A stretch of 58,015 nt of DNA from Conexivisphaerales archaeon (GCA_038728585.1 JAVYTR010000002.1:292354-350368), one strand, 5' to 3'. Shown: positions 1-16,988, numbered from the stretch's first letter. Numbers and translations are program-made. The notes: a model not told the origin generated them from the sequence alone.

Positions 1-2629
1 GGAAATTGAACCTGCCGTTAATGTCTGTCATTCCTTGAATACTGAAGTTTCTCGTGCTCACCGATATGGGATAGTTGCTTAACGGCTTGCCCCCTTGCGT
101 TTTCGCTTCTATTATGATGTTGTACACACTTGCATTGATGTTTAATGTATGAGAACCGTTCAAGCCCACAAACACTGAATACAGCTGGTATCCTTGGTAG
201 TACACGTTTACAAGATAGGTCCAAGGAAGCAACTGAACAGATGCAGAACCCGTAACGTCTGTCTGCAACTGGATGTTCAATGGATAACCCAGAGGGTTTA
301 CGAATGCCGAAACTCCCTGAACTGGCTTACCGTCTGAATCAAAAACTGCGACCTTGAAAACGTATCCGGTGAAATTAAGGTCAATGGCAGTCAGAGAACC
401 GTTTGTGTCCTGCCTTAAGGGTACTTGCGCACCAGAAACAAGTATCACAGGAGTGAGCTGTTGTATTGCAGTGACCTTTGTTCCGTTGAAGTAAATCGAA
501 GGGTTCATAGAATAATAATCAGAAAAGACCATCATCGCATAAGGACTCATTGTCAGGTTAGAAGAAAAAGATTTCGTTATGGTTGAAAAAGATGTGCCAG
601 CAGAAGCGGTAAAGTTAAGCTGCTGTACTGCAAGAAAGGTAGAATGGAGATTCAGCACGCCAAATGGAGGAGATGATTCCAACGGTTTGTAGTTTATCGT
701 AATGGTTGGTGATGAAGAGCTTAGTGTTGCTGAAATAAGGTTTTTTGTCTGTGCAATCCAGCTTATAGCTGCCTCACCAAAATTCAGCTCCACCTGACCA
801 ACAAAACCAGACGGGGAGCTGGCTACTATCCTCATCCTGAATTCGAATGAGGTCGAATTGACCAGGTCGGTCAAAGGAATTGTCAGTTTGTGCCAGTTAC
901 CATCAGTTGCAAGATTCTGGACAGTAGTTGTGTTGGTAGGTATCAACGAGCCAGACAGAGGAAATACAAGTGTATTTGAATAGTTTCCCCTTAGCGTGGG
1001 GTCTACATCTATGGCCAAATAGGCGAATGGTGCTATTCTACTTACATTTGATGATATTATGTCAGCAGAGTAGTAGAGGGACAAGTTGGTGCCGAGAGAA
1101 TCCAGCACACTGTAGTTGCTAGATATCAGCATAGCGGATGAGCTTGCGTTCGGGCTGAAGACCCAACTTGCGACTCTCCCGGTGAAGCTGTTAAGCGTTG
1201 TCGAGAAGAATTTGGATGATGCATAAGAGGAAGCGTTGCCGGAGAAGGTTGCCTTTGATGACCAAGCTGACGATGAAACAGAAAAGGCGGGAGAGGGCAT
1301 GCTGTAGAAAATTGTACCGTTGTATGAAAAACTCTCAGGTATCCAGTTCAGGTTTCTTAGAGGCAGACTGATCGATGCTCCTGTCGAAGGTAGCGTAATG
1401 TTGAAGGGATTAAAACCAGCCTCCCAGAGTACAGTAGCATTTGGCAGATACTGGTGAACGTAGGATTCATTTCCAAGGCTTACTTCTAGGCCCTTAAACT
1501 GTGCACTGATCTGGTCTGAAAGGCTTGAAATGCTGGATGCAACAGACCAGACGGTTTCGACGGTTAGCGATGCTGAAGGAGGAAGCTGACCCAGCCGATA
1601 TGAAACTGCTGCAGCTGAAGGGCCAGCCGAGTTAAAGTTACTGGTGAGATTGTTCAACCTTGTTGCGTTCAGAATGAACTGCATGTTGCCAGTATCGACC
1701 AAAGCTGGGGTAGAGTTGGTAGAAAACCCTGCGTACGTGTCGCCTACATACCCATAGACGACATTGCTGGTTGCGTTATAGACTACACCTGATACCCCGA
1801 AAACAGCTAGTTGCGAAAAGTCCATCAGCTGGATTGTACTCAGGTTAGTTATCAAATTGCCTGAAGGATTGAACAGATGTGTAATCATGTCAAAAGTACC
1901 ATTATAAGCAAGCAAAACCTTTGTCACCTTTACTTGACCAGCAAAGTAAGTCAGTTCTGATGCTGAGAAGTTTGCTGATGGTAAAAGACCAATAGTTCTC
2001 CATTGCTTCGATATGTTGTATGTTGAAGGAGCTATCAGTAAGGAGCCATATTCTTGATTCTGTGATGATTGAGTACTTAATATTGTCTTATCATAAAGAG
2101 AAAAGAAGAAGGTGTTTGCTATACTTATGTTAAGATTGCTCCCCTGTTGGTATCCCAGCGAAGTTAAAGTCAGCACACCTGAATGTAGTAATGAGCTTAC
2201 TGCGTTTGTCCTGTAAGACGGAGCAGGAGACATTGGATTACCATAATAAAGCTGGTAGGTCTGAGTCGAGTTTGCTGCTATATTAACAAGAAAGAGTATC
2301 TGAGCTGACGTGACAAAGCCACCCGAATAATTCTCCGACACTATGAACGAAGGGACTTCATAGCCAGTACCATTAATTATTCTTATTTCTTTAAGAGCAC
2401 TGGTAAGGTGCCCAGGCTCGAAGTTTACATCTACAAATACAGGTTTCATTACAAACGGTTGGTTGTATGGATTTGTCACGGAAATGTTTCTTTCGAATAC
2501 GAAACTGGGGTTCCACCAGTTGAAAGAAGGGTTTGACTGTGCAATGCTTATGACTCTTTCATTACCCGTTGCCGCTACAGCAGAAGTGACTATGATGCAA
2601 AGAAGAAGAATGAGGAAGACTCTTTTCAT
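1..2629 (-). CDS. large secreted DUF2341-type surface protein (3' end missing)
   Basis: This reading frame is open from an ATG at 2629 to the left edge of the window (876 codons, no stop), so the C-terminus lies outside. The N-terminus MKRVFLILLLCIIVTSAVAA is a Sec signal peptide. Residues about 30-135 resemble DUF2341 (NWWNPSF opening, QLYYGNP near the end), a domain of archaeal and bacterial surface proteins. The middle is a long beta-type region rich in Asn, Ser and Thr with many N-x-S/T sequons. The last about 100 visible residues look like carboxypeptidase-regulatory-like beta-sandwich repeats (VFDSDGKPVQGVSAF, then a second AKTQGGKPLSNYPIS unit). The ATG overlaps the stop of the upstream membrane-protein gene as ATGA, so translation is probably coupled. 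As the last visible gene of an operon of glycan genes it is a likely glycosylated cell-surface protein. The exact role is unknown. Confidence 0.85.
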   Translation of the reverse strand, partial: MKRVFLILLLCIIVTSAVAATGNERVISIAQSNPSFNWWNPSFVFERNISVTNPYNQPFVMKPVFVDVNFEPGHLTSALKEIRIINGTGYEVPSFIVSENYSGGFVTSAQILFLVNIAANSTQTYQLYYGNPMSPAPSYRTNAVSSLLHSGVLTLTSLGYQQGSNLNISIANTFFFSLYDKTILSTQSSQNQEYGSLLIAPSTYNISKQWRTIGLLPSANFSASELTYFAGQVKVTKVLLAYNGTFDMITHLFNPSGNLITNLSTIQLMDFSQLAVFGVSGVVYNATSNVVYGYVGDTYAGFSTNSTPALVDTGNMQFILNATRLNNLTSNFNSAGPSAAAVSYRLGQLPPSASLTVETVWSVASSISSLSDQISAQFKGLEVSLGNESYVHQYLPNATVLWEAGFNPFNITLPSTGASISLPLRNLNWIPESFSYNGTIFYSMPSPAFSVSSSAWSSKATFSGNASSYASSKFFSTTLNSFTGRVASWVFSPNASSSAMLISSNYSVLDSLGTNLSLYYSADIISSNVSRIAPFAYLAIDVDPTLRGNYSNTLVFPLSGSLIPTNTTTVQNLATDGNWHKLTIPLTDLVNSTSFEFRMRIVASSPSGFVGQVELNFGEAAISWIAQTKNLISATLSSSSPTITINYKPLESSPPFGVLNLHSTFLAVQQLNFTASAGTSFSTITKSFSSNLTMSPYAMMVFSDYYSMNPSIYFNGTKVTAIQQLTPVILVSGAQVPLRQDTNGSLTAIDLNFTGYVFKVAVFDSDGKPVQGVSAFVNPLGYPLNIQLQTDVTGSASVQLLPWTYLVNVYYQGYQLYSVFVGLNGSHTLNINASVYNIIIEAKTQGGKPLSNYPISVSTRNFSIQGMTDINGRFNF

Positions 2630-4155
2630 ACGTTGAACCTCCATGCCAGTCTAGGCTCGTCTCTTGTGACCGATACCTCTTCTTCTATCACATTGAGCCA
2701 TTTCAGTCTGTTAATTAACATAGTCAACCTTTGCCAAGTCATGTCTGGGTTAAGCTCTCTGGCAATTCCCATAAGCTCTCTTCCACTCTTCTTCCTGCTA
2801 CCCTTCCTCATGTGTGCTAAAAGTATGAACTCGTCCAAATGCAAGCCTAGTGTACCATCGAATACCCTTCTGTTCTTCAAATCTAAGCTTCTTGCCACAC
2901 ACGTAAAGAACAGGAGGAGAAATACAAAAAACACTGCTTCGACTACAGAAGCTGATTTCAGCAGATAGCTGGAATACAAGCTTACCAGCAGGTTTGTAAA
3001 TGGACTAATAGAACTTGATGCATAAATCGCACTGATCAGAGAGCGAATGGACGTGCCATCTTCCTGCACGAACGATTGGGTATCCTCGCCGACAAGAATT
3101 GCGGCAAACCCGTCTGATATGTTCTGTCCCTCCATAATCTTTACTGGGAAGTAGGTCATGATTCCTTTGAACTGAATCGTAGATACGTTCCATGTGTAAA
3201 GAGAGTTAGACACCAGACTTGACGGCTTGGTGCTTAACGGTCTAGCGGCAGTATATATCAAAATCTGCGATTGCGCTGCACCAGCGGTCTTTGCCGTCGA
3301 AAAGTAGGCCTTCTGTTTTAAAATATTGCCGTACGTAAGATTGTATACGTAGACAGTACCTGTTGTGCCGTTTATCTTCTGTGGAAAAGAAAAGGTAACA
3401 CCAAGCTCTGACGGAATAGGAGCTAGATATTTAATGCTTCCCAGGTTTATCACATCCACTGCAGGGTACCCATCGACATGAGTATAGACGTGAAGGCTGA
3501 CTTGGAAAGAACCGAGCAACACAAGAGACATCACCAATATTCCAGCCGCTTTCTTTGATGGAAAGAGATAAGGCACTTCGTTCAGAAGTTTGCCACAGTA
3601 GAGACAAAAATTCCTGCCGTCTCTTCTGTAAGTTTCACAGTAATCACAATCGCTTATCTGCTCATGCCTAGCTCTAAGGGAGAAGTAGCCCAGTGGAATG
3701 GAAAGTACCAGGTAAAGCAGGGATAAAACATTCTCCGCAGGAACTAAGGTCGGAGAGGGAAGAAGAATAAACAAGAATGAAGGCAAAGCAAGCACAGAAA
3801 CACCTCTTCCGGCTAGATATCCTAATGTAAAGACGAAGGTGGCGATCATCCCTGCCAGCTGAACTGTTGTGCTTTGGAGATAGGTACCGAACACGAATAG
3901 AATGAAAGAAAGTACTGCGAAATAAAGACTTAATGATTTGGACATATGAATATAGCCGGAAATCCTCTTCAAAACGAATGTTTCTGACATTGCGAAAAGA
4001 AATACTGCTGATAGCATATAGGTAAGAAACCGAGCAGGATGAACTTCGTAGGCAGCTGCTAGGACTTGAGGCACATAAGAATAATAGAGCATGATTAAAG
4101 GGATCACAAGAGCCAAGATGGACGAGAAGATGAACCTCCTTATGCTGGGGGTCAA
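2626..4155 (-). CDS. polytopic membrane protein with zinc ribbon, ectodomain and C-terminal winged helix
   Basis: I do not recognise the family. The 509 residues show about six N-terminal hydrophobic segments (residues ~8-160), a cytosolic CxxC-x9-CxxC zinc ribbon (CDYC...CLYC, ~168-185), and a membrane segment (~205-222). A ~175-residue extracytoplasmic domain with N-x-S/T sequons follows, then another membrane segment (~405-422). The soluble tail of ~75 residues reads like a winged helix (GRELMGIARELNPDMTWQRL, then LINRLKWLNVIEEE). This suggests a sensor with an outside domain and an inside nucleic-acid or protein-binding domain, but that is inference. It starts 14 bases after the stop of the upstream membrane-protein gene and overlaps the following surface-protein gene by four bases, so the three are probably co-expressed. 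Confidence 0.8.
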   Translation of the reverse strand: MTPSIRRFIFSSILALVIPLIMLYYSYVPQVLAAAYEVHPARFLTYMLSAVFLFAMSETFVLKRISGYIHMSKSLSLYFAVLSFILFVFGTYLQSTTVQLAGMIATFVFTLGYLAGRGVSVLALPSFLFILLPSPTLVPAENVLSLLYLVLSIPLGYFSLRARHEQISDCDYCETYRRDGRNFCLYCGKLLNEVPYLFPSKKAAGILVMSLVLLGSFQVSLHVYTHVDGYPAVDVINLGSIKYLAPIPSELGVTFSFPQKINGTTGTVYVYNLTYGNILKQKAYFSTAKTAGAAQSQILIYTAARPLSTKPSSLVSNSLYTWNVSTIQFKGIMTYFPVKIMEGQNISDGFAAILVGEDTQSFVQEDGTSIRSLISAIYASSSISPFTNLLVSLYSSYLLKSASVVEAVFFVFLLLFFTCVARSLDLKNRRVFDGTLGLHLDEFILLAHMRKGSRKKSGRELMGIARELNPDMTWQRLTMLINRLKWLNVIEEEVSVTRDEPRLAWRFNV

Positions 4156-4169
4156 GAGAATCGCCCGGT

Positions 4170-5417
4170 TTAATCTTCCATTTTATGCCTTGATACAACC
4201 CTCTGTGTGGAAGGGTCGTATTTGCATTCGATATGTGATATTTTCTTGCCAGTTGCCTTTGCTGCGCTCTGTCCAAGTGAAGCAATAAGAGGACATCCCA
4301 TAGTATTGCAGACATGCTCTGTCATCTCCTGCTGCACACACAGAGTTCTAACGAAGGGCTTCTGTAGAGTACTTTGCATTTCTCCATCGATAAATACTAT
4401 CTTGGCTGATTCGACAAGCCCAAGGCCTTGGCTCAACGTCTTTGTCAACCAACTTTCTATGTAATCTTCGCCCTTGCCGTTCAGTTCTCCAAGCTCTCTT
4501 TCATAACTCCTAACCAGTCCCTCGCCTATAGGCTCAAGCGATAACTGCATTGTCTCAGTGTTTCCTTTTGGAGTCACCACCATCTTGTCCCCCTCGTCAG
4601 TTGATTCGAAAGTAACAGAGAACATGCCGTAGCGACCCCTTAGCATCTCGGCTAAAGCCAACAGCGGGCCTAGGGAAGTATCGCTCGCAGGATAGAGCTT
4701 GACCTTTGGGTCTAGCTGAGTAAGTATGAGTGCTGCACCAATAACGAAAGCCGCAAGCGAACCTACTTCATACACAATGGCTAGAGTTTCATACGAAAGT
4801 AAGAATAGAGCTGCACTGAGTATCAGCATAATGAGCCCAAGCAATCTGGAATTCTGTGCTCTTGCCCTCCACATTTTTACACGTAATAGTTCAGAATCGC
4901 TAAGCTCTGGTTTCTTCTGTGTGATTTCCCTCTCAGCTGTTACAACTTTTGCTGCAGTCTGACGAATAAATGTCACAAATGAAGCAACAAGGAAGACAAG
5001 AAGAAGTGCAAGAATGGCTGTAGCCCTGTATGAATACTGTGTTATTATAACCCCTTCGAAGAAGGACCTCAAGCCATGGTAGTAAACCGCATAGTATGAG
5101 GGATAGTTCAACATCAAAGCTAATACGATTATGGCTGCAGAAAGCAACACGTATCTTCTGATGCTCTTTTTTGGTTCAGTTCGCATGTAGTATCGCTTGA
5201 TCAGATAGAGATTCAACAGTGAAGATATTACGGCTACGAATACCAGAAAGGACATTCTGATGGAGTACTGGGTTATAGGAATACCTGTGAAGAAGGCAGA
5301 AATTCCAGAATGGTACATCACGTAATATGTGGGGTAGTTTGCTGCTGCAGCTGCGATTACAGTCACAAGGAAAAGCAGAATTATTGTGTTTCTCAGACTC
5401 TTTTCAGACATAGGCAT
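4170..5417 (-). CDS. membrane protein with duplicated N-terminal unit and Cys-containing cytosolic domain
   Basis: Function unknown. The 415-residue protein opens with two copies of one module. Residues ~27-55 contain NYPTYYVMYHSG followed by ITQYSIR, and residues ~104-132 contain NYPSYYAVYYHG followed by ITQYSYR. Each is preceded by a hydrophobic helix and followed by another, giving a tandem hairpin-like membrane duplication. Two further membrane segments lie at ~190-235. The remaining ~180 residues are soluble and end in a patch holding Cys and His residues (CVQQEMTEHVCNTMGCP, then HIECKYD), which could bind a metal or ligand in the manner of V4R-like output domains; that comparison is weak. 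The gene lies 16 bases after the epimerase stop and 14 bases before the next membrane gene, inside the same run of genes. Confidence 0.8.
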   Translation of the reverse strand: MPMSEKSLRNTIILLFLVTVIAAAAANYPTYYVMYHSGISAFFTGIPITQYSIRMSFLVFVAVISSLLNLYLIKRYYMRTEPKKSIRRYVLLSAAIIVLALMLNYPSYYAVYYHGLRSFFEGVIITQYSYRATAILALLLVFLVASFVTFIRQTAAKVVTAEREITQKKPELSDSELLRVKMWRARAQNSRLLGLIMLILSAALFLLSYETLAIVYEVGSLAAFVIGAALILTQLDPKVKLYPASDTSLGPLLALAEMLRGRYGMFSVTFESTDEGDKMVVTPKGNTETMQLSLEPIGEGLVRSYERELGELNGKGEDYIESWLTKTLSQGLGLVESAKIVFIDGEMQSTLQKPFVRTLCVQQEMTEHVCNTMGCPLIASLGQSAAKATGKKISHIECKYDPSTQRVVSRHKMED

Positions 5418-5433
5418 CTTGTCCCGGTTTAGT

Positions 5434-6411
5434 TTAGTTTACTTTCTGGTATACTTCTCTTCTGTTCAGCTTATACCATTCGATGAAGTATGATATGCCT
5501 TCTCTTAAAGGCACTTGCGCCTTCCAACCCAAAAGCTCCTGAGCTTTCCTGTTGTTGCACAGCGTCCTTGGAAAATCGCCTTGGTAGCCTTCCTTGAATG
5601 CTGGAGGCTTGTTCGAATTAAGAGCATCTAGTATCATTTCCGCCACATCGATTATCCTATATTCTTTCCCATACCCTATATTGAAGACCCTGCCTGAGCT
5701 CTCTTCCCTCATAGCTGACAATATTGTTGCTGAAACGACATCAGAAACGAACGTGAAGTCTCTCGAGTGGCTTCCATCGCCATATATTATAGGGCTCTGA
5801 CCACCCAGAATATTCTTGACGAATGCGTGGATTACCTGGTCTGGTCTTCCTCTGGGACCATAGACAGAGAAGTATCTTAAACAGGTCACTTGCAGGCCGT
5901 AGCTCTCAAAATAGGCCAAGCAGTATTTTTCCGCTGAAAGCTTACTAGCCCCATATACACTGGTTGGATTAGTCGGGTGATTCTCATCAATCGGAACCTT
6001 AACGATCTTGCCAAACACCGAAGAGGAAGAAGCGTATACCAACTTTTTCACTCCATGCTTTCTTGCAGAATTCAGGACGTTTATTGTTCCGTCTACGTTC
6101 ACGGAATTTGTTTTGACCGGGTCGAGATTGCAGTACCTTATACCGGCTTGAGCGGCAAGGTGGAATATTACATCTATCCCTTTGCAGGCCGAATCTACAG
6201 CTGCTTGGTCTCTGATATCAGCCTTTATCAATCTGTACTTTGAATTCCCAAGGTTATGTTTCACGTTCTCCTCCTTCCCGGAATAGAAGTCATCAAAGTT
6301 GTCGAGAACTGTCACTTTGCAACCTAAACGAAGCAGCGAATCTGCAAGATGGGAGCCTATGAACCCTGCTCCTCCTGTGATCAGGATGTTTGCTCCACTA
6401 AGCTCCAGCAA
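5434..6411 (-). CDS. NAD-dependent nucleotide-sugar epimerase/dehydratase (GalE-like)
   Basis: This is an extended short-chain dehydrogenase that converts nucleotide sugars, most likely a 4-epimerase of UDP-glucose/UDP-N-acetylglucosamine type. The Rossmann motif GGAGFIGS is at residues ~13-20, the catalytic serine run at ~128-131, and the YGASK catalytic Tyr/Lys at Y153 and K157. The 325-residue length is normal. Substrate cannot be decided from sequence alone. It directly follows a GT4 glycosyltransferase with no intergenic bases and precedes the membrane-protein genes, so it probably supplies an activated sugar to the surface glycan made by this operon. Confidence 0.9.
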   Translation of the reverse strand: MLELSGANILITGGAGFIGSHLADSLLRLGCKVTVLDNFDDFYSGKEENVKHNLGNSKYRLIKADIRDQAAVDSACKGIDVIFHLAAQAGIRYCNLDPVKTNSVNVDGTINVLNSARKHGVKKLVYASSSSVFGKIVKVPIDENHPTNPTSVYGASKLSAEKYCLAYFESYGLQVTCLRYFSVYGPRGRPDQVIHAFVKNILGGQSPIIYGDGSHSRDFTFVSDVVSATILSAMREESSGRVFNIGYGKEYRIIDVAEMILDALNSNKPPAFKEGYQGDFPRTLCNNRKAQELLGWKAQVPLREGISYFIEWYKLNRREVYQKVN

Positions 6412-7575
6412 TCAGTTCATAATCCTTTTATATTCTGAAGCTAATCTTTCTGCAAGGTATTCAAAAGTGAAAAGAGAAGCCCTTCTTCTTCCAGCTTCGC
6501 CCATCTTGTATCTGAGGTCTTCACTCTGCAGCAAGGTAATTACAGCATCAGCAATCGCCTTGTGGTTTGCAAACGGGATTATCAATCCACAGTCGCCGTA
6601 ACCGACCTCATAAGGTAAACCTCCAACATTCGTTACCACAACCGGCTTTGCCTGCGCCATGGCTTTCAGTACTGCTTGGCTGAATCCTTCGAAGCTGCTC
6701 GGCATCAGCATTATGTCGCAGGATGCAAACATGTCTCTTTCCTCTGCTTCATCGGTTATGGGTCTGTGGAAGATTATGTTTCTGGAAACGCCTATTCTTG
6801 CAGCTAGCTCGCCCAGATATGCAGAATAGCCGGTGTAGTCAGGCCCAACCATCACAAGAACTGCATCGTGTGAAAAAGACACTATCTCCTTCATGGCCAT
6901 TACAAGATGGTGCAGTCCTTTCTGTCTGCTTATCCTGCCAACGTAAAGAAGTACAGGCGACCTGCCGAACATTCTCTTCAATCTGTCTCCATCGCCTGGA
7001 ACAAGGTAGCCAGCTGGCATACCAGAAGGCTCAACATCAACCCTTCCATCAGCTATACCATAGGACCTGACCCATCCGACAAGCTCCGGATACCTCACTA
7101 GTATAAGTTGAGCAGCTCTGAAGATGACAGGAGTTATCAGCCCATCGTACATGTTGAACATCGTGAGCTTTACAGACCCATAATCTGCGTGGGTGTTGAA
7201 CGGTCCATAGGTTGTAAGGATCAAAGGTGTGGAATTCTTCTTTGCTGCAAAGAGTGCGCTTATAGAATATAGGTCATGACTGTAAACGTGAACTATATCA
7301 TGCCCTCTAGCTGCTAAAGCACTGTAAAGAGTTGGCCACAACTTTAGCCTGTAACTCAGGTCAAGTGCGACAGGAAGCCTGTGGATGTGCACTCCATCTA
7401 TAGTCTCTTCCTTTGGTTCGAGTTTTCTATTCAAAACAGAGTCAGGTGTGTAGATATCTACTCGAAATCCTTGCTTCACAAACTGCCTGCTCATACCCCT
7501 GACATAGGCTTCTATACCTCCTATCATAGGGTAAAAGCTTGGAGTTACTATTGCCAGCGAGATACCTTCTACCAA
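6412..7575 (-). CDS. GT4-family glycosyltransferase
   Basis: A GT-B fold retaining glycosyltransferase of 387 residues that transfers a sugar from a nucleotide donor to a growing glycan at the cytoplasmic membrane face. The N-terminal acceptor-side domain carries the family signature PMIGGIEAYV at ~17-26. The donor domain has LLYVGRISRQKGLHHLV at ~210-226. The C-terminal signature reads SSFEGFSQAVLKAMA, so the second glutamate of the usual E-x7-E motif is lysine here (LKAM in place of LEAM). The first Glu is kept. This may alter activity, or the true partner residue may be elsewhere. Its start overlaps the upstream GT4 gene by seven bases. Donor and acceptor are unknown. Confidence 0.88.
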   Translation of the reverse strand: MVEGISLAIVTPSFYPMIGGIEAYVRGMSRQFVKQGFRVDIYTPDSVLNRKLEPKEETIDGVHIHRLPVALDLSYRLKLWPTLYSALAARGHDIVHVYSHDLYSISALFAAKKNSTPLILTTYGPFNTHADYGSVKLTMFNMYDGLITPVIFRAAQLILVRYPELVGWVRSYGIADGRVDVEPSGMPAGYLVPGDGDRLKRMFGRSPVLLYVGRISRQKGLHHLVMAMKEIVSFSHDAVLVMVGPDYTGYSAYLGELAARIGVSRNIIFHRPITDEAEERDMFASCDIMLMPSSFEGFSQAVLKAMAQAKPVVVTNVGGLPYEVGYGDCGLIIPFANHKAIADAVITLLQSEDLRYKMGEAGRRRASLFTFEYLAERLASEYKRIMN

Positions 7576-8741
7576 CCGTTCATACCCCTGTAGACACTCT
7601 CTATGCTTTCTACTATCTTATCCCACCTGTGCCCTTCTGCCATCGCCCTGGCAGCTGAACCCATACGCTTTGCCGAATCTTCGTCCTTCATTAATGAATG
7701 GATCGAATCAGCCAAGGAAGCTGCATCTTCGGGAGGTACGAGCAAACCGTTTACCCTGTCTTTGATGATGCTTGCAGGGCCATCAGTATAACTAGCAACA
7801 AGAGGTTTGCCATGAGCTGCAGCCTCGAGCAGAACTATCCCGTATGGCTCGTAGACGCTCGGTAACACAAAGACTGAACATGACTCATAGGCAGCAAGCT
7901 TCTCTTCTTCAGAGAGAGGACCAGTAAATATGACCTTCCCAAATATTCCTAGCTGGCTGGTTTCATAGACTAGCTTGTTGTTGTATTCCTCTTCCTCCCT
8001 ATCTGTTACTGGCCCAGCTAAAACGAGGTACAGGTCTTCGTATTCTTTGGAAACTTTGGAGAATGCCTGCAGAAGATATTCAAGTCCTTTTGTTTTGTTT
8101 ATTCTTCCGAGATATAGTATGTACCTTTTATCATGTAGCTTGAATCTGGAGAGAAATCTTTCTGCGTCTGCCTTCTCAAAATGTCTGGGATCTACACCGT
8201 GTGGTATTGTTACGAGTTTCGAATTTTCTAGACCTAGCGATGTGAGTTTTTCGGCTTCCGAGCTGGTTAACGAAATCACCGTATCGAAACCGTTCAACAT
8301 GAAATGACCCACCGTCTTATCGTACAGAGGAACCATGAACCTTGAGAACCTTCTTCTCATTCTTGAAGGAGGGAATGGAGAGTGAGCTGTCAGAACAGAC
8401 CTGCTACCTGTAACTTTTGATGCTATCAAGGATATGTCAGAATGAGGATGTCTGTAGACATGAGCATGAACCACATCGAATTCTCCTTTAACAAGTTCCT
8501 TCATTACTCCAGGCCAGAATCTAGCAAATTCTCCCAAAGTAAACAGGGAACTGAACCTTCTGACAGGTAAACCATCATAGAATTCACTTCCACAGAGTTT
8601 CCCGCCGTTTCTGTCACCTCTGTATGTGAAGACATGCACTTCATGCCCCCTCTCATGCAGAAGCTTCGAAAGAGAATAGACATGCCTCTCAACTCCGCCC
8701 TCAACCGGATAGAAGTATGGAGTGACTTGAGCTATTTTCAA
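7569..8741 (-). CDS. GT4-family glycosyltransferase
   Basis: A 390-residue GT-B glycosyltransferase. The N-terminus has the typical TPYFYPVEGGVERHV segment (residues ~7-21), the donor-domain start YILYLGRINKTKGLEYLL is at ~206-223, and the E-x7-E signature EPYGIVLLE is intact at ~298-306. It sits between the polysaccharide deacetylase gene, which it overlaps by four bases (ATGA), and the second GT4 gene, which it overlaps by seven. The overlap arrangement supports one transcript and an ordered glycan-building pathway. The sugar donor cannot be called. Confidence 0.9.
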   Translation of the reverse strand: MKIAQVTPYFYPVEGGVERHVYSLSKLLHERGHEVHVFTYRGDRNGGKLCGSEFYDGLPVRRFSSLFTLGEFARFWPGVMKELVKGEFDVVHAHVYRHPHSDISLIASKVTGSRSVLTAHSPFPPSRMRRRFSRFMVPLYDKTVGHFMLNGFDTVISLTSSEAEKLTSLGLENSKLVTIPHGVDPRHFEKADAERFLSRFKLHDKRYILYLGRINKTKGLEYLLQAFSKVSKEYEDLYLVLAGPVTDREEEEYNNKLVYETSQLGIFGKVIFTGPLSEEEKLAAYESCSVFVLPSVYEPYGIVLLEAAAHGKPLVASYTDGPASIIKDRVNGLLVPPEDAASLADSIHSLMKDEDSAKRMGSAARAMAEGHRWDKIVESIESVYRGMNGW

Positions 8742-9631
8742 TTGGCTTTGAATTCCTGAACTGATTTTTTGGATGCTTCCGTATTTTGGCTGATGTGTGT
8801 TGCCAACTCTCCCATAGTCATTGGCTTTAGAAGACCACTCTTTTGATAATCCGACATGAGCGAGAAGATGGGGTCAAGAACCTTATCCCTGTACTCTTGG
8901 GGGGATGGGAATACCACATCCCACGGATGAGTCCATAGATGGAAGATGCTTCCCGTCTTGATGCATAGTTCAAGAAGTGTTCTGGGTAAGAAGCTCTGTT
9001 GATATGTTTCAGCCCCTGTATAAATGACTGGGGCTATGTTCAAAAGCCCTTCGTTGGTAGCTGCGTTTCCGATTCTTCTCTCTTTCCCCCTGTAAGCTAT
9101 GAAACCGAGGTTTCTCAGTGTATCCAGATGAGCAACTCTGTTCCACGGAAAGATGAAGGTTGAATATTTTGAGTCACCTACAGCTTTCTTGAATCTTTCA
9201 AAATCTTCAAGCAACTCATATTCAGTGGCAGCTGAAACGTCCAGATGAGAATAGGTGTGGACAGCTATCTCTTTCTTTGAAGTGGATGATGTTATTTTAT
9301 TGAATTGGTCAGGGTATTCTTCAACTGTCCTTCCACATACAGCCCAAGTTACGGGGAGGTCATATCTTTCAGCAAGCATGATCAACGATGAGGTTCCTCT
9401 TTCGTTTGCCCGGGCTCTTTCTGGCCTCGTAACATCAAAATCGACTGAAATACAACAGAACGCTCTTTTCGGCTCTGAATCGTTTGGCTCATATTGCAGC
9501 TTCATCAACCTCATGGCTAGCTTTTTTGCGGTGCGAAATGCCAACGGGTTTTGTGAAAGAGCAAAGCTCAGAACCGACTTCTTGACGGAAGACTTAAATT
9601 GGAGCATGGTCAAAAGTACATCTAATAACAC
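8738..9631 (-). CDS. polysaccharide deacetylase family protein
   Basis: A NodB-type carbohydrate esterase (CE4-like) of up to 297 residues, predicted to remove N-acetyl or similar groups from glycans. Motif 1 is SVDFDVTRPE (Asp pair), motif 2 is HTYSH with both zinc-binding histidines, and FPWNRV looks like the substrate-groove motif. There is no signal peptide, so it may act on intracellular glycan intermediates. The N-terminal ~50 residues are extra. The annotated start is a GTG at 9631, which almost coincides with the expected transcription start from the TATA-like box at 9649-9658; an ATG at 9607 (MLQFKSSV) is an equally good start. It is the first gene of the minus-strand glycan operon. 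Confidence 0.85.
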   Translation of the reverse strand: MLLDVLLTMLQFKSSVKKSVLSFALSQNPLAFRTAKKLAMRLMKLQYEPNDSEPKRAFCCISVDFDVTRPERARANERGTSSLIMLAERYDLPVTWAVCGRTVEEYPDQFNKITSSTSKKEIAVHTYSHLDVSAATEYELLEDFERFKKAVGDSKYSTFIFPWNRVAHLDTLRNLGFIAYRGKERRIGNAATNEGLLNIAPVIYTGAETYQQSFLPRTLLELCIKTGSIFHLWTHPWDVVFPSPQEYRDKVLDPIFSLMSDYQKSGLLKPMTMGELATHISQNTEASKKSVQEFKAN

Positions 9632-9648
9632 ATAATATGAATTATAAA

Positions 9649-9658
9649 GATATAAAAA
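9649..9658 (-). promoter_or_regulatory. TATA-like box for the glycan/surface-protein operon
   Basis: On the minus strand the bases read TTTTTATATC, a good archaeal box A. The expected start of transcription 25-28 bases further on falls at or next to the GTG at 9631. That suggests a leaderless transcript, or a ~22-base leader if the ATG at 9607 is used. It is the only obvious promoter for the following seven minus-strand genes, which are separated by 16 bases or less. Confidence 0.5.
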
Positions 9659-9677
9659 TGGAGCCTAAACCCATAAG

Positions 9678-9686
9678 TTTTATATT
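9678..9686 (+). promoter_or_regulatory. TATA-like box upstream of structured RNA candidate
   Basis: The plus-strand sequence TTTATATTT matches the archaeal TATA consensus. A start 26-30 bases downstream would fall at ~9705-9709, exactly where the base-paired element beginning at 9710 starts. No plus-strand gene follows, so if used it would drive a stand-alone RNA. Confidence 0.4.
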
Positions 9687-9707
9687 TTTCAGCAGAGACT
9701 TTCCAAA

Positions 9708-9786
9708 ACGGGTGTGCCGCGATAGGTCGGAAAAAGGGTGTATCCTGGGTTCAGATTGCAACTCAGCCCAGGGCACCCCACACCTG
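9708..9786 (+). ncRNA. three-way-junction structured RNA candidate
   Basis: Bases 9710-9785 fold almost completely. P1 pairs 9710-9716 with 9779-9785 (GGGTGTG with CACACCT, one G-T). P2 is a small hairpin pairing CCG 9717-9719 with CGG 9728-9730. P3 pairs GGGTG 9736-9740 with CACCC 9774-9778. P3 continues after a TAT bulge with CCTGGG 9744-9749 pairing CCCAGG 9767-9772, then TT/AG and AG/CT pairs around a C-C mismatch, closed by loop ATTGCAA. I cannot match it to tRNA, 5S, SRP, RNase P or a known riboswitch. On the minus strand the P3 hairpin is followed by TTTTT, so it could instead terminate the 9809-13796 operon or act in the deacetylase leader. Confidence 0.4.
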
Positions 9787-9808
9787 TAAACCTCTTAGCA
9801 TTCAATTA

Positions 9809-11147: not shown

Positions 11148-12116
11148 TTACATCAGGAATTGTGTTATGATTATTGCTAGTATAGAGTAGGCAGCTTCCA
11201 TTACCAGAAGGGACTTTACCAGATTCTTTTCAGACAGAGGTGAAATATTCATGAACGCATGGGCAAGAGCAGGATAAGGAGGAGGTATAAGCTTCCCGTT
11301 CGTGTCTACAGTTGTATTGCCAAAGACACTCCTCTGAGAGAAAGGCCTTCTGTGCAGCATCTTCAGTGTAAAATCAAATGCTGCTGGCATGCTTACAAGT
11401 ATTGCAGCGAACTCCAGCCCGCCTACCAACCCTATGGAAGCAATGACAGCTCCACTCATCAAAGTGCCGGTGTCTCCTGGAAAAGCCTTCGCAGGGTACC
11501 AATTGTACCTAAGAAAAGCCAGATAACCTCCTAAGAAGATTATGCCGATGAGGGAAGCGTCATACTGTCCACGCAGCCAAGCCAGAACTGTAAGTGCAGC
11601 TATAGCTATCGAAGCGGTCCCTGCTTCAAGACCGTTGAAACCTGCAAGCATATTGCTGAAGTTGGCTGATGTTGTTACTGCTAAAGGCACTACTAGAAGT
11701 GGATAGAGCAGACCGAATGGTATTGAGCCTATTATCGGAAAGTTAATCGCATTTCTCCCCCAGAGTACGTATACCAGAGGTATAGATGCTACTGCTACCA
11801 GGAATGGTTTGTAGCGCTGCCTAAGCCCCATCAGATCATCTATCACTCCAACTAATCCAACAAGTATTACAGCTGCAAAAGCTGCGAAGAATGTTAAGGA
11901 TATTGGGTCTAGCAACGGATATGCCAGAGCAAGCCCTATCAGAGATGCTATCAGTATCGATAAACCTCCCATCTCCGCCCTTACAGGTTTGTCAATCTTA
12001 TGTATATCAAGTCCGGTTATGCCGTATTTTATCAGCCTTGGGATAAGATAGGGTAATAGAGTAAAGGTTACTGCAGAAGTAACCCCTAACAAGAGGAAAG
12101 CAGCAAGTATATTCAT
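11148..12116 (-). CDS. MraY/WecA-family phosphoglycosyltransferase (AglH-like)
   Basis: A polytopic enzyme of 322 residues that moves a sugar-1-phosphate (typically GlcNAc-1-P) from UDP onto a polyprenyl/dolichyl phosphate, the first step of lipid-linked glycan assembly. Family motifs are present: GVIDDLMGLRQRYKP with the DD metal pair (~90-104), NMLAGFNGLEAG (~154-165) and the FPGDTGTLMSGA loop (~213-224). About ten hydrophobic segments run through it. It overlaps the small membrane gene upstream by four bases. With the neighbouring nucleotidyltransferase and the DUF354 protein it forms the core of an N-glycan or surface-polysaccharide operon. Confidence 0.92.
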   Translation of the reverse strand: MNILAAFLLLGVTSAVTFTLLPYLIPRLIKYGITGLDIHKIDKPVRAEMGGLSILIASLIGLALAYPLLDPISLTFFAAFAAVILVGLVGVIDDLMGLRQRYKPFLVAVASIPLVYVLWGRNAINFPIIGSIPFGLLYPLLVVPLAVTTSANFSNMLAGFNGLEAGTASIAIAALTVLAWLRGQYDASLIGIIFLGGYLAFLRYNWYPAKAFPGDTGTLMSGAVIASIGLVGGLEFAAILVSMPAAFDFTLKMLHRRPFSQRSVFGNTTVDTNGKLIPPPYPALAHAFMNISPLSEKNLVKSLLVMEAAYSILAIIITQFLM

Positions 12117-12328
12117 GCATTACCACTTTTTCTGTTGCTGAATCTGATTACCGCAGACCAAAGTAGCATACATCCTAATACGAACCCCACTACCCATGCG
12201 GCAAGAGAAATTATCCCATGCCAAAATGGCTCAAGAAAGACAGTTATCTTCCAGACCATTAGCATCAGTATTGCAGAAAGACCTGCAACCCCTAGACTCA
12301 TAAGAGTGACCAGGTCCGCCTTGGTCAT
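12113..12328 (-). CDS. small two-helix membrane protein
   Basis: A 71-residue protein with two clear hydrophobic segments (residues ~8-27 and ~38-60) and a short basic tail. It shares its first base with the nucleotidyltransferase stop (TAATG) and its stop overlaps the start of the AglH-like gene (ATGA), so it is firmly embedded in the operon and likely real. I do not recognise the family. It may be an accessory subunit of the membrane phosphoglycosyltransferase, by position only. Confidence 0.75.
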   Translation of the reverse strand: MTKADLVTLMSLGVAGLSAILMLMVWKITVFLEPFWHGIISLAAWVVGFVLGCMLLWSAVIRFSNRKSGNA

Positions 12329-13053
12329 TAACGTGAAACTACCCCTTCGACCGAGCTGCCTTCGCTTGATAATATTTCATCGTTAACCCTCTCAAAGTCG
12401 GTCATTGAACCTACATCAGCCCATTTTGCTTCTTCAAAGTATGCATTCAGTCTTTCACCTGCATTTAATAGACTGGGGAAGATTTCCCTCTCTAAGCTTG
12501 ACGATTTGCCTATAGGGATATAGTCAAAGATTCTTTTTTCAAATATGTAGATACCTGCGTTGGCTGAATAGGTGAGCGTAGGCTTCTCCTCGAACCTTTC
12601 TATGCTTCCATCCACGCCTATAGAAATATGCCCATAGGGTACCTTTACTTCAAACTTCTTCACCGCGATTGTACCAATTCCTCCCTTTAGCCTGTGAGTT
12701 GCTACCAGATTGTGTATGTTGAGGTTTGTGACTATATCTCCATTCATCGCAAGGAAAGTATCGTCTATAAACTTCCCAGCAGTGCTGAGCTGTCCACCTG
12801 TACCCAGAGGAACATCTGCCTGCGCATACTCTATCTTTACACCCAGCCTCGAACCGTCTCCCAACGCATTGATAATCTGCTCTTTCAGATATGCAACGCA
12901 GATGACAAATTCATTAATTCCATATTCATTCAAGTATCTGATCGTCCTTTCGAGCAAGGGTTTCCCAGCTACAGGCAAAAGGCATTTAGGCATAACATAA
13001 GTTAGTGGTCTCAACCTTGTACCTGCTCCTCCGGCAAGTATAACCGCCTTCAA
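12328..13053 (-). CDS. sugar-phosphate nucleotidyltransferase
   Basis: A GlmU/RmlA/ManC-type nucleotidyltransferase domain (241 residues) that joins a sugar-1-phosphate to a nucleoside triphosphate. The activating loop AVILAGGAGTRLRPLT with KCLLPVAGKPLLE is at residues ~3-31, the Mg-binding MNGDIV at ~98-103, and FEEKP at ~154-158. There is no C-terminal left-handed helix, so it is a single-domain form. It starts with TTG at 13053, overlapping the stop of the upstream regulator (TTGA). The sugar is not decidable; in this operon it would supply the donor for lipid-linked glycan synthesis. Confidence 0.9.
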   Translation of the reverse strand: MKAVILAGGAGTRLRPLTYVMPKCLLPVAGKPLLERTIRYLNEYGINEFVICVAYLKEQIINALGDGSRLGVKIEYAQADVPLGTGGQLSTAGKFIDDTFLAMNGDIVTNLNIHNLVATHRLKGGIGTIAVKKFEVKVPYGHISIGVDGSIERFEEKPTLTYSANAGIYIFEKRIFDYIPIGKSSSLEREIFPSLLNAGERLNAYFEEAKWADVGSMTDFERVNDEILSSEGSSVEGVVSR

Positions 13054-13418
13054 TTCTTTGACCTACCCTGAATCTGGTATAACCTTGGGATCATCTCTCT
13101 GACAGCCTTCAACTTTTCAAGATACTCGTGTCTTAATTGTTTGTACTTGTCGAATTCTGACATGAACGACCTTCCCTTTTCGCTGACAAAGTACAAACCT
13201 TGCCTTTCCAGCAGGAGTCCTCTCTTCAGCATCAGTGTGATATGTTTATCAGCTGACTTCTGAGGCAGGCCCGATGCCTTAACCAGCTTCGACCTGGTCG
13301 CACCTCTTCTTGCTGTATCAAGCAGTGTATAGACTAGCTCGGCTCTTGACCTTCTCACCAAGACTTTACTATCCTCAGAATCTCCATGGTCTGATGGATG
13401 ATTATTATGAAGGCTCAA
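13050..13418 (-). CDS. winged-helix DNA-binding protein
   Basis: A 122-residue protein with one winged helix: ELVYTLLDTARRGATRSKLV is the first helix pair, QKSADKHITLMLKRGLL the recognition helix region, and GLYFVSEKGRSFM the wing. A helical tail of ~40 residues may mediate dimer formation. The pattern matches HTH_45-type archaeal regulators. The TTG start at 13418 is not certain because the first ~20 residues are polar and could be dispensable. It overlaps the nucleotidyltransferase start by four bases, so it is probably a regulator of this glycan operon. Confidence 0.8.
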   Translation of the reverse strand: MSLHNNHPSDHGDSEDSKVLVRRSRAELVYTLLDTARRGATRSKLVKASGLPQKSADKHITLMLKRGLLLERQGLYFVSEKGRSFMSEFDKYKQLRHEYLEKLKAVREMIPRLYQIQGRSKN

Positions 13419-14299: not shown

Positions 14300-15691
14300 A
14301 TGAAGGTTGCAGTCTTTGCCCTCGATTCAGTTCCACCTGAAATGCTTTTCGAAAAGCTGCTTGATAAGCTGCCAAACACCAAAAGAATGTACCAGAGAGG
14401 CATGCATGGTGTTTTGCGCACTTGTCATCCTCCCATAACAGTTCCAGCATGGATGGTTATGATGACTGGGAAGAATCCGGGCAAACTAGGGATTTATGGC
14501 TTTAGGCACCGAAAGCCTAGTTCTTATACCGAAGGCTACATAGTCAACTCCTCGCATGTAAAAGAAAGAACGGTGTGGGAGATACTGGCTGAAAAGGGCA
14601 AGCGCTCAATCGTGATAGGAATTCCTCCCAGCTATCCTGTTAAGCACAAAGAAAACGTAACTATGGTATCATGCTTTCTGACCCCAAGCCAGGAAAGGGA
14701 CTTTACAAATCCATCTGAGCTAAAACAGGAGATATTGAAGATAACTGGAGGAAGATACCTCTTCGATGTAACATTCAGGGTAGAAGACAGAGAGAGAATC
14801 AAAAGAGAGCTGTTCGAGATGACAGAGAAAAGATTTGATATAGCCGAATATCTGATAAAAAATAATCCTTGGGATCTTTTCATTCTTCATGAGATAGGTT
14901 TCGACAGGCTGCATCATGCTTTCTGGAAGTTCTTTGACCCAAGACATCCTAAACATATCAAGGGTAATGAATACGAAAGAATTGATGAAGAATACTACAG
15001 TATGGTTGACGAAAGGATAGGAAGACTGATGGGGATGTTTCCTGATGATTGCATAACATTCTTCCTTTCAGACCATGGGTCTGCTCCTATGATGGGAGCC
15101 TTCTGTGTAAACGAATGGCTCGAAAGTGTAGGCTACCTAAAGTTCAAACAAAAGCCGACAAACAAAGTTGAAATAGAGAAGGCGGAAGTCGATTGGAGCA
15201 AAACCAAGGCGTGGGGTTGGGGCGGATATTATGCCAGGATCTTCTTCAACGTAGCGGGAAGAGAGCCAAATGGGATTGTGCCACAGGAAGAACTAGAATA
15301 CGAGAAGAAAAGACTGACTCAACTCATCCGTGAGATAAAAGATGAAGATGGTAGACCTATGGATAATAGGGTATTCGAACCAGAAAGCTTGTACGGGATA
15401 GCTATGGGCGATAAACCTGACCTGATGGTATACTTTGACAATCTCCGTTGGAGGTCAGCCGGAACGGTAGGGCATAACTCGATTTACCTGCATGAAAACG
15501 ATACAGGTCCAGACGATTCCGTGCACTCTATGAACGGAATATTTCTGATGTATAATCCGCAAAAAAGCTACACTGAAAGACTTGTTCAAGTCAGAGCTGA
15601 GGATATCGCTCCCACCATACTTTCTCTCTTTGGCCTTGAGGGGGAATTGAAGAGCATAGATGGTGCTGTAATCCGGGAAGTGAAAGAATAA
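14300..15691 (+). CDS. NPP-type phosphodiesterase/nucleotide pyrophosphatase
   Basis: An alkaline-phosphatase-superfamily enzyme (463 residues) of the type I phosphodiesterase/nucleotide pyrophosphatase group. The metal-binding Asp is in VFALDSVPP (residue 9), the catalytic Thr is T47 in PPITVPAW, and further metal ligands are in GFDRLHHAF, SDHGS and GTVGHN. No signal peptide is seen, so it is cytoplasmic. The stop TAA shares a base with the ATG of the APS kinase gene, implying coupling. With APS kinase next to it, a role in sulfonucleotide or sulfated-glycan metabolism is plausible but unproven. Confidence 0.88.
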   Translation: MKVAVFALDSVPPEMLFEKLLDKLPNTKRMYQRGMHGVLRTCHPPITVPAWMVMMTGKNPGKLGIYGFRHRKPSSYTEGYIVNSSHVKERTVWEILAEKGKRSIVIGIPPSYPVKHKENVTMVSCFLTPSQERDFTNPSELKQEILKITGGRYLFDVTFRVEDRERIKRELFEMTEKRFDIAEYLIKNNPWDLFILHEIGFDRLHHAFWKFFDPRHPKHIKGNEYERIDEEYYSMVDERIGRLMGMFPDDCITFFLSDHGSAPMMGAFCVNEWLESVGYLKFKQKPTNKVEIEKAEVDWSKTKAWGWGGYYARIFFNVAGREPNGIVPQEELEYEKKRLTQLIREIKDEDGRPMDNRVFEPESLYGIAMGDKPDLMVYFDNLRWRSAGTVGHNSIYLHENDTGPDDSVHSMNGIFLMYNPQKSYTERLVQVRAEDIAPTILSLFGLEGELKSIDGAVIREVKE

Positions 15692-16302
15692 TGATTGAGC
15701 AAGCCACGAATGAATCCCTAAGTGCAAATTTTGTTACAGCCAAAAAATCCAGACCTTCGGGGTTCACCGTTTGGTTCACCGGTCTACCTGCAGCTGGCAA
15801 ATCTACTCTGGCACAACTTCTCAGAGACAGGCTTGACGACATTTACGATGGATACGTAGAGATCCTTGATGGAGACGAGATAAGAAAGGGTCTGTCAAAG
15901 GATTTGGGTCTGTCGAAGGAGGATAGAGAAGAGCATGCGAGAAGGGTATCTTATGTTGCAAAGGTACTTTCACGTAACGGAGTTGTTGCAATAGTAGCTC
16001 TGATATCACCTTACAGAAAATCAAGGGAGTTTGCAAAGGAACTGATTGGCGCTGACAGGTTTGTAGAAGTGTTTGTGAAGGCTTCATTAGAGACATGCAG
16101 AAGAAGGGATCCAAAAGGACTGTACGCAAAAGCCGAGAAGGGAGAAATTACAAACCTAACTGGCTTGCAGGAGCCTTACGAAGAACCCCTCAATCCAGAT
16201 GTTGTCCTTGATACTGAAAGATTTGGACCGAACGAATGTGTGGAGCAGCTCGTATCGTATCTGCTCAAAAAAGGACTTTTATCCAGAGCCTATACAGTTT
16301 AA
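15691..16302 (+). CDS. cysC: adenylylsulfate kinase
   Basis: A 203-residue APS kinase that phosphorylates adenosine 5'-phosphosulfate to PAPS, the sulfate donor. The P-loop GLPAAGKST is at residues 31-39, followed by the APS-binding DGDEIRKGL (~60-68) and SPYRKSREFAKE (~109-120), then the lid region CRRRDPKGLYAKA. No ATP sulfurylase domain or gene is in the window. It overlaps the phosphodiesterase gene by one base (TAATG). PAPS could feed sulfation of surface glycans, but no sulfotransferase is visible nearby, so the use of the product is inference. Confidence 0.93.
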   Translation: MIEQATNESLSANFVTAKKSRPSGFTVWFTGLPAAGKSTLAQLLRDRLDDIYDGYVEILDGDEIRKGLSKDLGLSKEDREEHARRVSYVAKVLSRNGVVAIVALISPYRKSREFAKELIGADRFVEVFVKASLETCRRRDPKGLYAKAEKGEITNLTGLQEPYEEPLNPDVVLDTERFGPNECVEQLVSYLLKKGLLSRAYTV

Positions 16303-16382: not shown

Positions 16383-16988
16383 CTAGGCTATGGAGAAGCG
16401 CTTCTTCATGAGAAGAATCGCAGGTATTAGCAAGGTAAGAAGTATTGGTATGCCTAGTGGGAACTCCGGTACTGATGTAGTTGGCGTACAACCTCCTCCA
16501 GTCCAGAAGTGGTCTATTATGTTGCCATTGAAGTCTTTTGGACTACTTCCGCCAACACCTATCTTCTGTGGAACTGTAAAGCAGTTGTTCGGTGAGGTCG
16601 TAGATGAGGTGCTGGGAATGGTAACTGTTATGCATGCAGAGCCATTGCCTGAACCATCTGTGGTAAGCAGCAGAACAGGAGAAGTCTGGCCTTCGACCTC
16701 ATAGTAGTATTGTGTATCTGGAAGCGCTCCTGTTACAGTTATATTAACATCAATGCTGTTTCCGCCTACAACGATCGGATCCTGATTGTTATTGCTTGGC
16801 TGATTCGCTGCGAAACCACCACCGTCTTTCATGGTTGGTGAATATGGGCTGCCTGAACAACTTGATGATGCGGAGTAGTAGTGTATGTACCACGTACCTT
16901 GCGGAGATGAACCTGCATAAGCGAAGCTAAAGCTCAATACGCTAATCAAAACTACTAATGAAACCAAAGCAGCAAGTTTTCTAAGCAT
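16383..16988 (-). CDS. secreted protein with PEF-CTERM-like sorting tail
   Basis: A 201-residue exported protein: N-terminal signal peptide (residues ~1-26, ending SFAYAG), a compact domain rich in Gly, Ser, Thr and Pro with six cysteines, and a C-terminal SVPEFPLG motif followed by a ~17-residue hydrophobic helix and the basic MKKRF tail. That layout (short Pro-Glu-Phe motif, membrane helix, basic end) is that of archaeal PEF-CTERM proteins processed by archaeosortases. No archaeosortase is recognisable in the window. It is divergent from the GH5-like gene, separated by a 212-base spacer. Function of the central domain is unknown. Confidence 0.8.
   Translation of the reverse strand: MLRKLAALVSLVVLISVLSFSFAYAGSSPQGTWYIHYYSASSSCSGSPYSPTMKDGGGFAANQPSNNNQDPIVVGGNSIDVNITVTGALPDTQYYYEVEGQTSPVLLLTTDGSGNGSACITVTIPSTSSTTSPNNCFTVPQKIGVGGSSPKDFNGNIIDHFWTGGGCTPTTSVPEFPLGIPILLTLLIPAILLMKKRFSIA

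Follow-up and report, generated by a model that had tools for sequence, protein, structure and literature searches.

Introduction

Do the glycan genes, membrane proteins and surface protein encoded in one run in a Conexivisphaerales archaeon form a single system, and which of its components are new? The run lies at the start of a 58 015-nucleotide stretch of genomic DNA (JAVYTR010000002.1:292354-350368 of genome G000), referred to below as the window. An initial annotation described seven genes ending in a DUF2341 surface protein, considered the latter to be the probable acceptor of the glycan and named two membrane proteins (415 and 509 aa, here MPA and MPB) as candidates for new components. 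As a whole, this interpretation is partly supported. The locus is more extensive than described, its membrane proteins recur across two archaeal classes and MPB appears, from family profiles, to be an exosortase relative without the catalytic half.

Gene organization

All seven reading frames were recovered on the minus strand with unchanged coordinates (Table 1). The enzyme assignments were upheld by a family profile search, and the close packing was borne out by spacings of -4, -7, 0, 16, 14 and -19 bases. Reading leftwards past the window edge completed the surface protein, and the run continued unbroken. It does not end at the surface protein as had been proposed: a third membrane protein (MPC, 707 aa, encoded just outside the window), a GT4 glycosyltransferase, an ABC ATPase and an ABC permease come after it with gaps of 17, 0, 17 and -1 bases. 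The co-directional unit thus consists of 11 genes with gaps of at most 17 bases, from the deacetylase (window 9631) to the permease beyond the left window edge; the first larger gap on the permease side measures 236 bases. An internal promoter, envisaged in the initial annotation as evidence against a single unit, has no obvious room, none of the gaps within the unit being big enough for another one. The 177 bp gap between the DUF354 gene and the deacetylase gene is, from its composition, the probable promoter of the unit. Relatives have similar gaps, with no conserved motif demonstrated.

The 11-gene run belongs to a surface-glycan cluster that spans at least about 53 kb. It is read here as the front section of that cluster, within an overall explanation (see Discussion) for which the chances seem evenly balanced. 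Upstream of the 177 bp gap, the GPT-type transferase is, judged by its family, the putative initiating enzyme of a lipid-linked glycan. The DUF354 protein is among the most conserved genes of the locus in the relatives annotated, and the NDP-sugar pyrophosphorylase is kept at the locus head in G001, G108 and G626:C84.

Table 1
Features at the head of the glycan cluster (positions in the window)
Feature	Position	Strand	Basis
Winged-helix protein (HTH_45), cluster head	13053..13418	-	PF14947, E 9.8e-11
NDP-sugar pyrophosphorylase	12328..13053	-	PF00483, E 2.7e-45
GPT-type polyprenyl-phosphate sugar-1-phosphate transferase	11148..12116	-	PF00953, E 2.4e-33; syntenic in relatives
DUF354 protein fused to winged helix	9809..11134	-	PF04007, E 1.3e-35; PF14947, E 2.6e-16
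Intergenic gap, 177 bp, with AT-rich TATA-like stretch AAAAATATAAAACTTATG	9632..9808	-	Sequence and gap table
Polysaccharide deacetylase	8738..9631	-	PF01522, E 1.6e-8
GT4 glycosyltransferase	7569..8741	-	PF00534, E 6.6e-44
GT4 glycosyltransferase	6412..7575	-	PF00534, E 1.5e-31
NAD-dependent sugar epimerase/dehydratase (SDR)	5434..6411	-	PF01370, E 6e-67
MPA, 415 aa	4170..5417	-	Without known family
MPB, 509 aa	2626..4155	-	Exosortase-fusion profile alignment; without catalytic half
Surface protein, 954 aa	1..2644, on to -220	-	Sequon count, signal peptide, C-terminal TM segment

Conservation of the locus

A scan of the named collection gave a sole match, contig JAJPJS010000008.1 of a Thaumarchaeota metagenome-assembled genome (G001). 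Among the close relatives searched, the locus was found in this genome only, which belongs to another genus of the same family. The order in G001 is pyrophosphorylase, GPT, DUF354, deacetylase, epimerase, dehydrogenase fusion, GT2, MPA, MPB, MPC. A search of the phylum with the MPC profile yielded two genomes of another class with GPT, deacetylase, DUF354, MPA, MPB, epimerase and MPC genes, the pyrophosphorylase being visible in one of them. A class-wide search gave further loci, which were annotated using home-made profiles.

The order MPA-MPB-(X)-MPC was found in 9/9 loci in which the contig permits the check, in two classes; two loci in G672 are truncated by contig ends. GPT, DUF354, deacetylase and epimerase genes accompany these loci where visible. 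The gene set thus recurs in the same order, not in the unrelated order that would have broken the proposed link, and both MPA and MPB are conserved across loci, in keeping with their nomination as new components. Type 1 loci (G000, G626:C82, G498 and, rearranged, G650) contain a surface protein homolog and an ABC pair; type 2 loci (G001, G626:C84, G694, G108 and G094) are without the surface protein. Both types are present in G626 as two separate loci. The membrane trio is thus the constant part of these loci, with the surface protein as an optional addition.

As glycan clusters hold many genes and frequently exchange them, the run might be no more than glycan and membrane genes that happen to be neighbours and share no function. 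Against this, the three orphan families keep one order in two classes as well as in both loci of a single genome; the reading is disfavoured by the conserved order and we regard it as highly improbable. Another reading makes MPC and the ABC pair an exporter of the glycan or of a surface protein, with MPA and MPB as accessory subunits. The ATPase and permease genes follow MPC in G000, G498 and G650 (only the ATPase is visible in G626:C82), and a pair is found further along in G672. However, the stretches read in G001, G694, G626:C84, G108 and G094 have no ABC genes beside the trio, and the permease reaches ABC2_membrane_3 below the cut-off only. We consider such an exporter quite unlikely.

The distribution of MPC is patchy (7/400 genomes of the class). 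MPA and MPC occur in G743 together with GPT and DUF354 genes and with MPB absent, so MPB is not always needed. The MPC proteins of G743 (L104) and G725 (L102, L103) are remote relatives in another class; G725 has two MPC-like genes with neither MPA nor MPB nearby. In type 2 loci and in G743, MPC is joined by a small membrane protein of about 120 aa that has no Pfam family (L011:16251-16625, L051:13953-14318, L104:9250-9630).

The surface protein

The surface protein, given previously as more than 876 residues, has a full length of 954 aa once read past the window edge. It has a signal peptide, a C-terminal TM segment and a basic tail (RRGSAR); no PEF, PEP or PGF sorting motif was found at the C-terminus. 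Its description as sequon-rich is justified: 34 NxS/T sequons were counted against 16.2 +/- 3.5 expected, and 0/500 shuffles reached 34. The DUF2341 label did not survive. The whole protein gave no match and the N-terminal 200 aa scored 15.2 bits (E 0.03), against a curated cut-off of 23.4 bits for PF10102; nor did a profile search of G000 find any protein above this cut-off. By this score the protein may at most be called DUF2341-like.

In the initial annotation the operon decorates a single acceptor, the co-encoded surface protein, with a single glycan. The sequon excess is strong, and the protein is present in 4/9 checkable loci; in G626:C82 and G498 the homolog lies between the two membrane proteins MPB and MPC, as in G000, and in G650 it is found nearby. 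The other five loci, all of type 2, retain the glycan genes and the trio and have no homolog by annotation with the home-made profiles, and a dedicated acceptor was on this ground rejected as the general core of the system. In addition, STT3/AglB is present in 9/9 genomes and is encoded outside the locus, suggesting general N-glycosylation. The co-encoded acceptor proposed initially is a feature of one sub-type only. That the operon serves this one protein seems decidedly improbable, and the protein is at most a candidate acceptor of the glycan.

MPB as a probable exosortase derivative

MPA and MPB are indeed unrecognised in Pfam and NCBIfam, as is MPC, and comparison of the three family profiles with PDB sequences gave nothing meaningful. 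Neither PF09721 nor TIGR04178 matched the 509 aa MPB at the curated cut-off (in G000, PF09721 matches three other genes). The relationship of MPB was found through proteins of 680-750 aa that are encoded beside or near MPA and match the MPB profile. These are true exosortases: PF09721 matched the three scanned with E-values of 9e-31, 1.3e-40 and 3.4e-32, and TIGR04178 was above the cut-off in 4/4. They consist of an exosortase, a zinc ribbon, an external domain and a C-terminal domain, and in two fusion loci neighbouring proteins carry VPEL-type sorting tails.

The MPB family aligned end to end with the fusion profiles in hhalign (99.4%, E 9e-22, 547 columns). In a split comparison, the N-terminal membrane half gave 95.5% (E 1.4e-8) and the C-terminal part 94.4% (E 9e-8). 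An EpsI-type external domain was looked for in MPB: the XrtD model reaches into this part of two fusions, but the external domains of the fusions and MPB did not align. As controls, decoy membrane families gave 12% or less; the score was reached by 0/60 block-shuffled profiles and was not reached by the reversed profile. At the family level, MPB thus has the N-half of the exosortase fold. In keeping with this, PF09721 matched the N-half only of the MPB from G694 (profile positions 5-119, E 4.7e-4). The MPB of the window is the most diverged member and alone gave no match to the exosortase profile; its assignment rests on the family for this reason.

The catalytic residues Cys215, Arg260 and His281 are found in 4/4 fusions but in 0/9 MPBs, in which the catalytic segment is shortened or replaced. 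MPB therefore appears, from the family profiles, to be an exosortase relative without the catalytic half, and is not filed as a sortase; the protein cleavage and transfer typical of sortases would not be expected of it. Because the N-half of the exosortase domain is present, we infer that the catalytic half was lost rather than gained.

MPB comprises the exosortase N-terminal membrane half, a zinc ribbon (C170 to C187), an external domain and a winged-helix-like C-terminus. By hydropathy, the N-terminal helices would be embedded, the zinc ribbon and C-terminus would be cytosolic and a domain of about 170 residues would lie outside. AlphaFold gave poor models (pLDDT 39) for both MPB and an MPC homolog, and only the local H-E-H-H-E-E winged-helix pattern at MPB residues 440-507 (pLDDT about 50-75) was used, with caution. 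Foldseek gave weak matches of the C-terminal part to HxlR/MarR/Fur/ORC winged helices (prob up to 0.97, E > 0.2).

MPB might accordingly be a one-component membrane regulator: the external domain would sense the surface, and the zinc ribbon together with the winged helix would regulate transcription of the cluster, MPA acting as a partner. Besides the C-terminal pattern and the Foldseek matches, this is favoured by HTH_12, which scored above the cut-off when the C-terminal segment of a fusion relative was scanned by itself (E 1.9e-5), and by further winged-helix genes at the cluster head. Yet the same C-terminal domain is found on intact sortases, where regulation has no obvious role, winged helices also bind proteins, and MPB lies inside the enzyme run and not in a separate regulator gene. 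A regulator is unlikely on balance.

MPA and MPC

MPA is composed of a two-TM hairpin and a cytosolic domain, the latter found in 36/398 genomes of the phylum. It adjoins or lies near exosortase fusions in four of the neighbourhoods read and is their usual neighbour. Residues 8-151 of MPA form a duplicated TM/loop unit (NYPTYY...FFTGIPITQYS/NYPSYY...FFEGVIITQYS), an N-terminal extension which, among the homologs aligned, is present only in the copy of this genome. A V4R/ligand-binding fold was suspected from a GCP...C motif and was dropped, being without Pfam support.

MPC has large external parts, and H506, R528, R663 and E697 are invariant across 11 members. It was ruled out as an exosortase (hhalign 0.1-0.3%), and no relative of known function was detectable in Pfam, NCBIfam and PDB sequence searches. 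Its role is a guess; an outer-face step is proposed from the invariant residues, the external parts and the set in G743 without MPB.

Cluster context

An intact archaeosortase (303 aa, TIGR04178 49.2 bits, cut-off 23) is encoded at the far end of the G000 cluster, about 42 kb away and not adjacent. It adjoins a PEF-CTERM-like protein and two nucleotide-sugar dehydrogenases. The arrangement recurs in G001 at the opposite end of its own cluster, and in G498 the contig that carries MPC also has an archaeosortase, at a distance of about 48 kb from it. Two more archaeosortase-family genes occur elsewhere in G000 (L090:3372-4292 and G000:C11:52745-53575), three in all.

Window positions 16383-16988 encode a secreted protein of 201 aa with the C-terminus VPEFPLG, a TM segment and a basic tail, a PEF-CTERM-like sorting signal that NCBIfam did not recognise. 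The sorting domain of the PEF-CTERM-like protein beside the archaeosortase scored 15.1 bits, below the cut-off of 25. An APS kinase (PF01583, E 2.5e-58), a type I phosphodiesterase-family protein and, elsewhere in the cluster, a sulfotransferase (window 14300-16302 and L014:7205-7816) together suggest a sulfated surface glycan. Two tandem type I phosphodiesterase-family proteins lie inside the cluster (L001:6109-8878).

Discussion

The homology of MPB, strong at the family level, and the gene order are well supported; the functions proposed here are drawn from sequence comparison. In our judgement, there is an even chance that the locus encodes a platform derived from an exosortase but without proteolytic action, as part of an archaeal equivalent of the exosortase/exopolysaccharide system of bacteria. 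The pyrophosphorylase, GPT, DUF354 protein, deacetylase, GT4 enzymes and epimerase would make a lipid-linked glycan, with MPA, MPB and MPC as the dedicated membrane module of the cluster. MPB, a scaffold or sensor of sortase descent, and MPA, an adaptor common to MPB loci and sortase fusions, may form a platform recruiting the glycan enzymes on the cytosolic side. MPC would carry out an extracytoplasmic step, i.e. glycan transfer, polymerisation or export. The glycan may be delivered to surface proteins, for example the 954 aa protein in loci having one, and the intact archaeosortase, with the PEF-CTERM-like protein, would anchor finished glycoproteins. The most far-reaching form of this proposal is tentative and rather unlikely: after the loss of the protease half, a sortase-family membrane protein would have been turned, together with MPA and the new family MPC, into a non-proteolytic machine for the outer-face step (transfer, polymerisation or export) of surface-glycan assembly.

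MPB has in common with the exosortase/archaeosortase family (PF09721, TIGR02602, TIGR04178; notably XrtD/XrtW-type fusions) the N-terminal membrane half and, with the archaeal fusion sortases, the zinc ribbon and C-terminal domain beyond the sortase part. It differs in that the membrane segment bearing the catalytic residues is missing along with them, and the surface protein next to MPB is without a cognate sorting tail. Archaeal Agl N-glycosylation likewise has a GPT-type lipid-linked start, GT4 enzymes, a sequon-rich protein and STT3 in the genome, but here STT3 is outside the locus. To our knowledge, MPA, MPB and MPC are not among the known Agl components.

In bacteria, EpsH is nearly always encoded among exopolysaccharide genes, with neighbours that include PF00534 and PF01522; in some cases EpsH is fused to an EpsI region, and EpsI had no known function in that study (PMC1569441). 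The present cluster similarly places a sortase-family gene among GT1 (PF00534) and deacetylase (PF01522) genes and, in G000 and G001, also includes an intact sortase together with a PEF-CTERM-like protein. In contrast, initiation is of the GPT type (PF00953) instead of PF02397, three extra conserved membrane proteins are present and the host is an archaeon. The mechanism proposed for Haloferax archaeosortase A depends on the active-site cysteine (PMC7157517). An archaeosortase is linked to surface-protein anchoring there as in our proposal, whereas MPB is without this cysteine and no PGF signal was seen. No description of the gene set or of a catalysis-free exosortase was found in the literature, which is weak evidence as many journals are outside the coverage.

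A conserved module keeping the sortase scaffold without the protease would be a sign that the family has another role besides proteolysis. The exosortase-exopolysaccharide link could be tested with three defined genes (MPA, MPB and MPC). Their products are also candidates for missing surface-glycan enzymes in the little-studied Nitrososphaeria-type archaea, and the locus suggests a new form of the archaeal machinery for cell-surface decoration.
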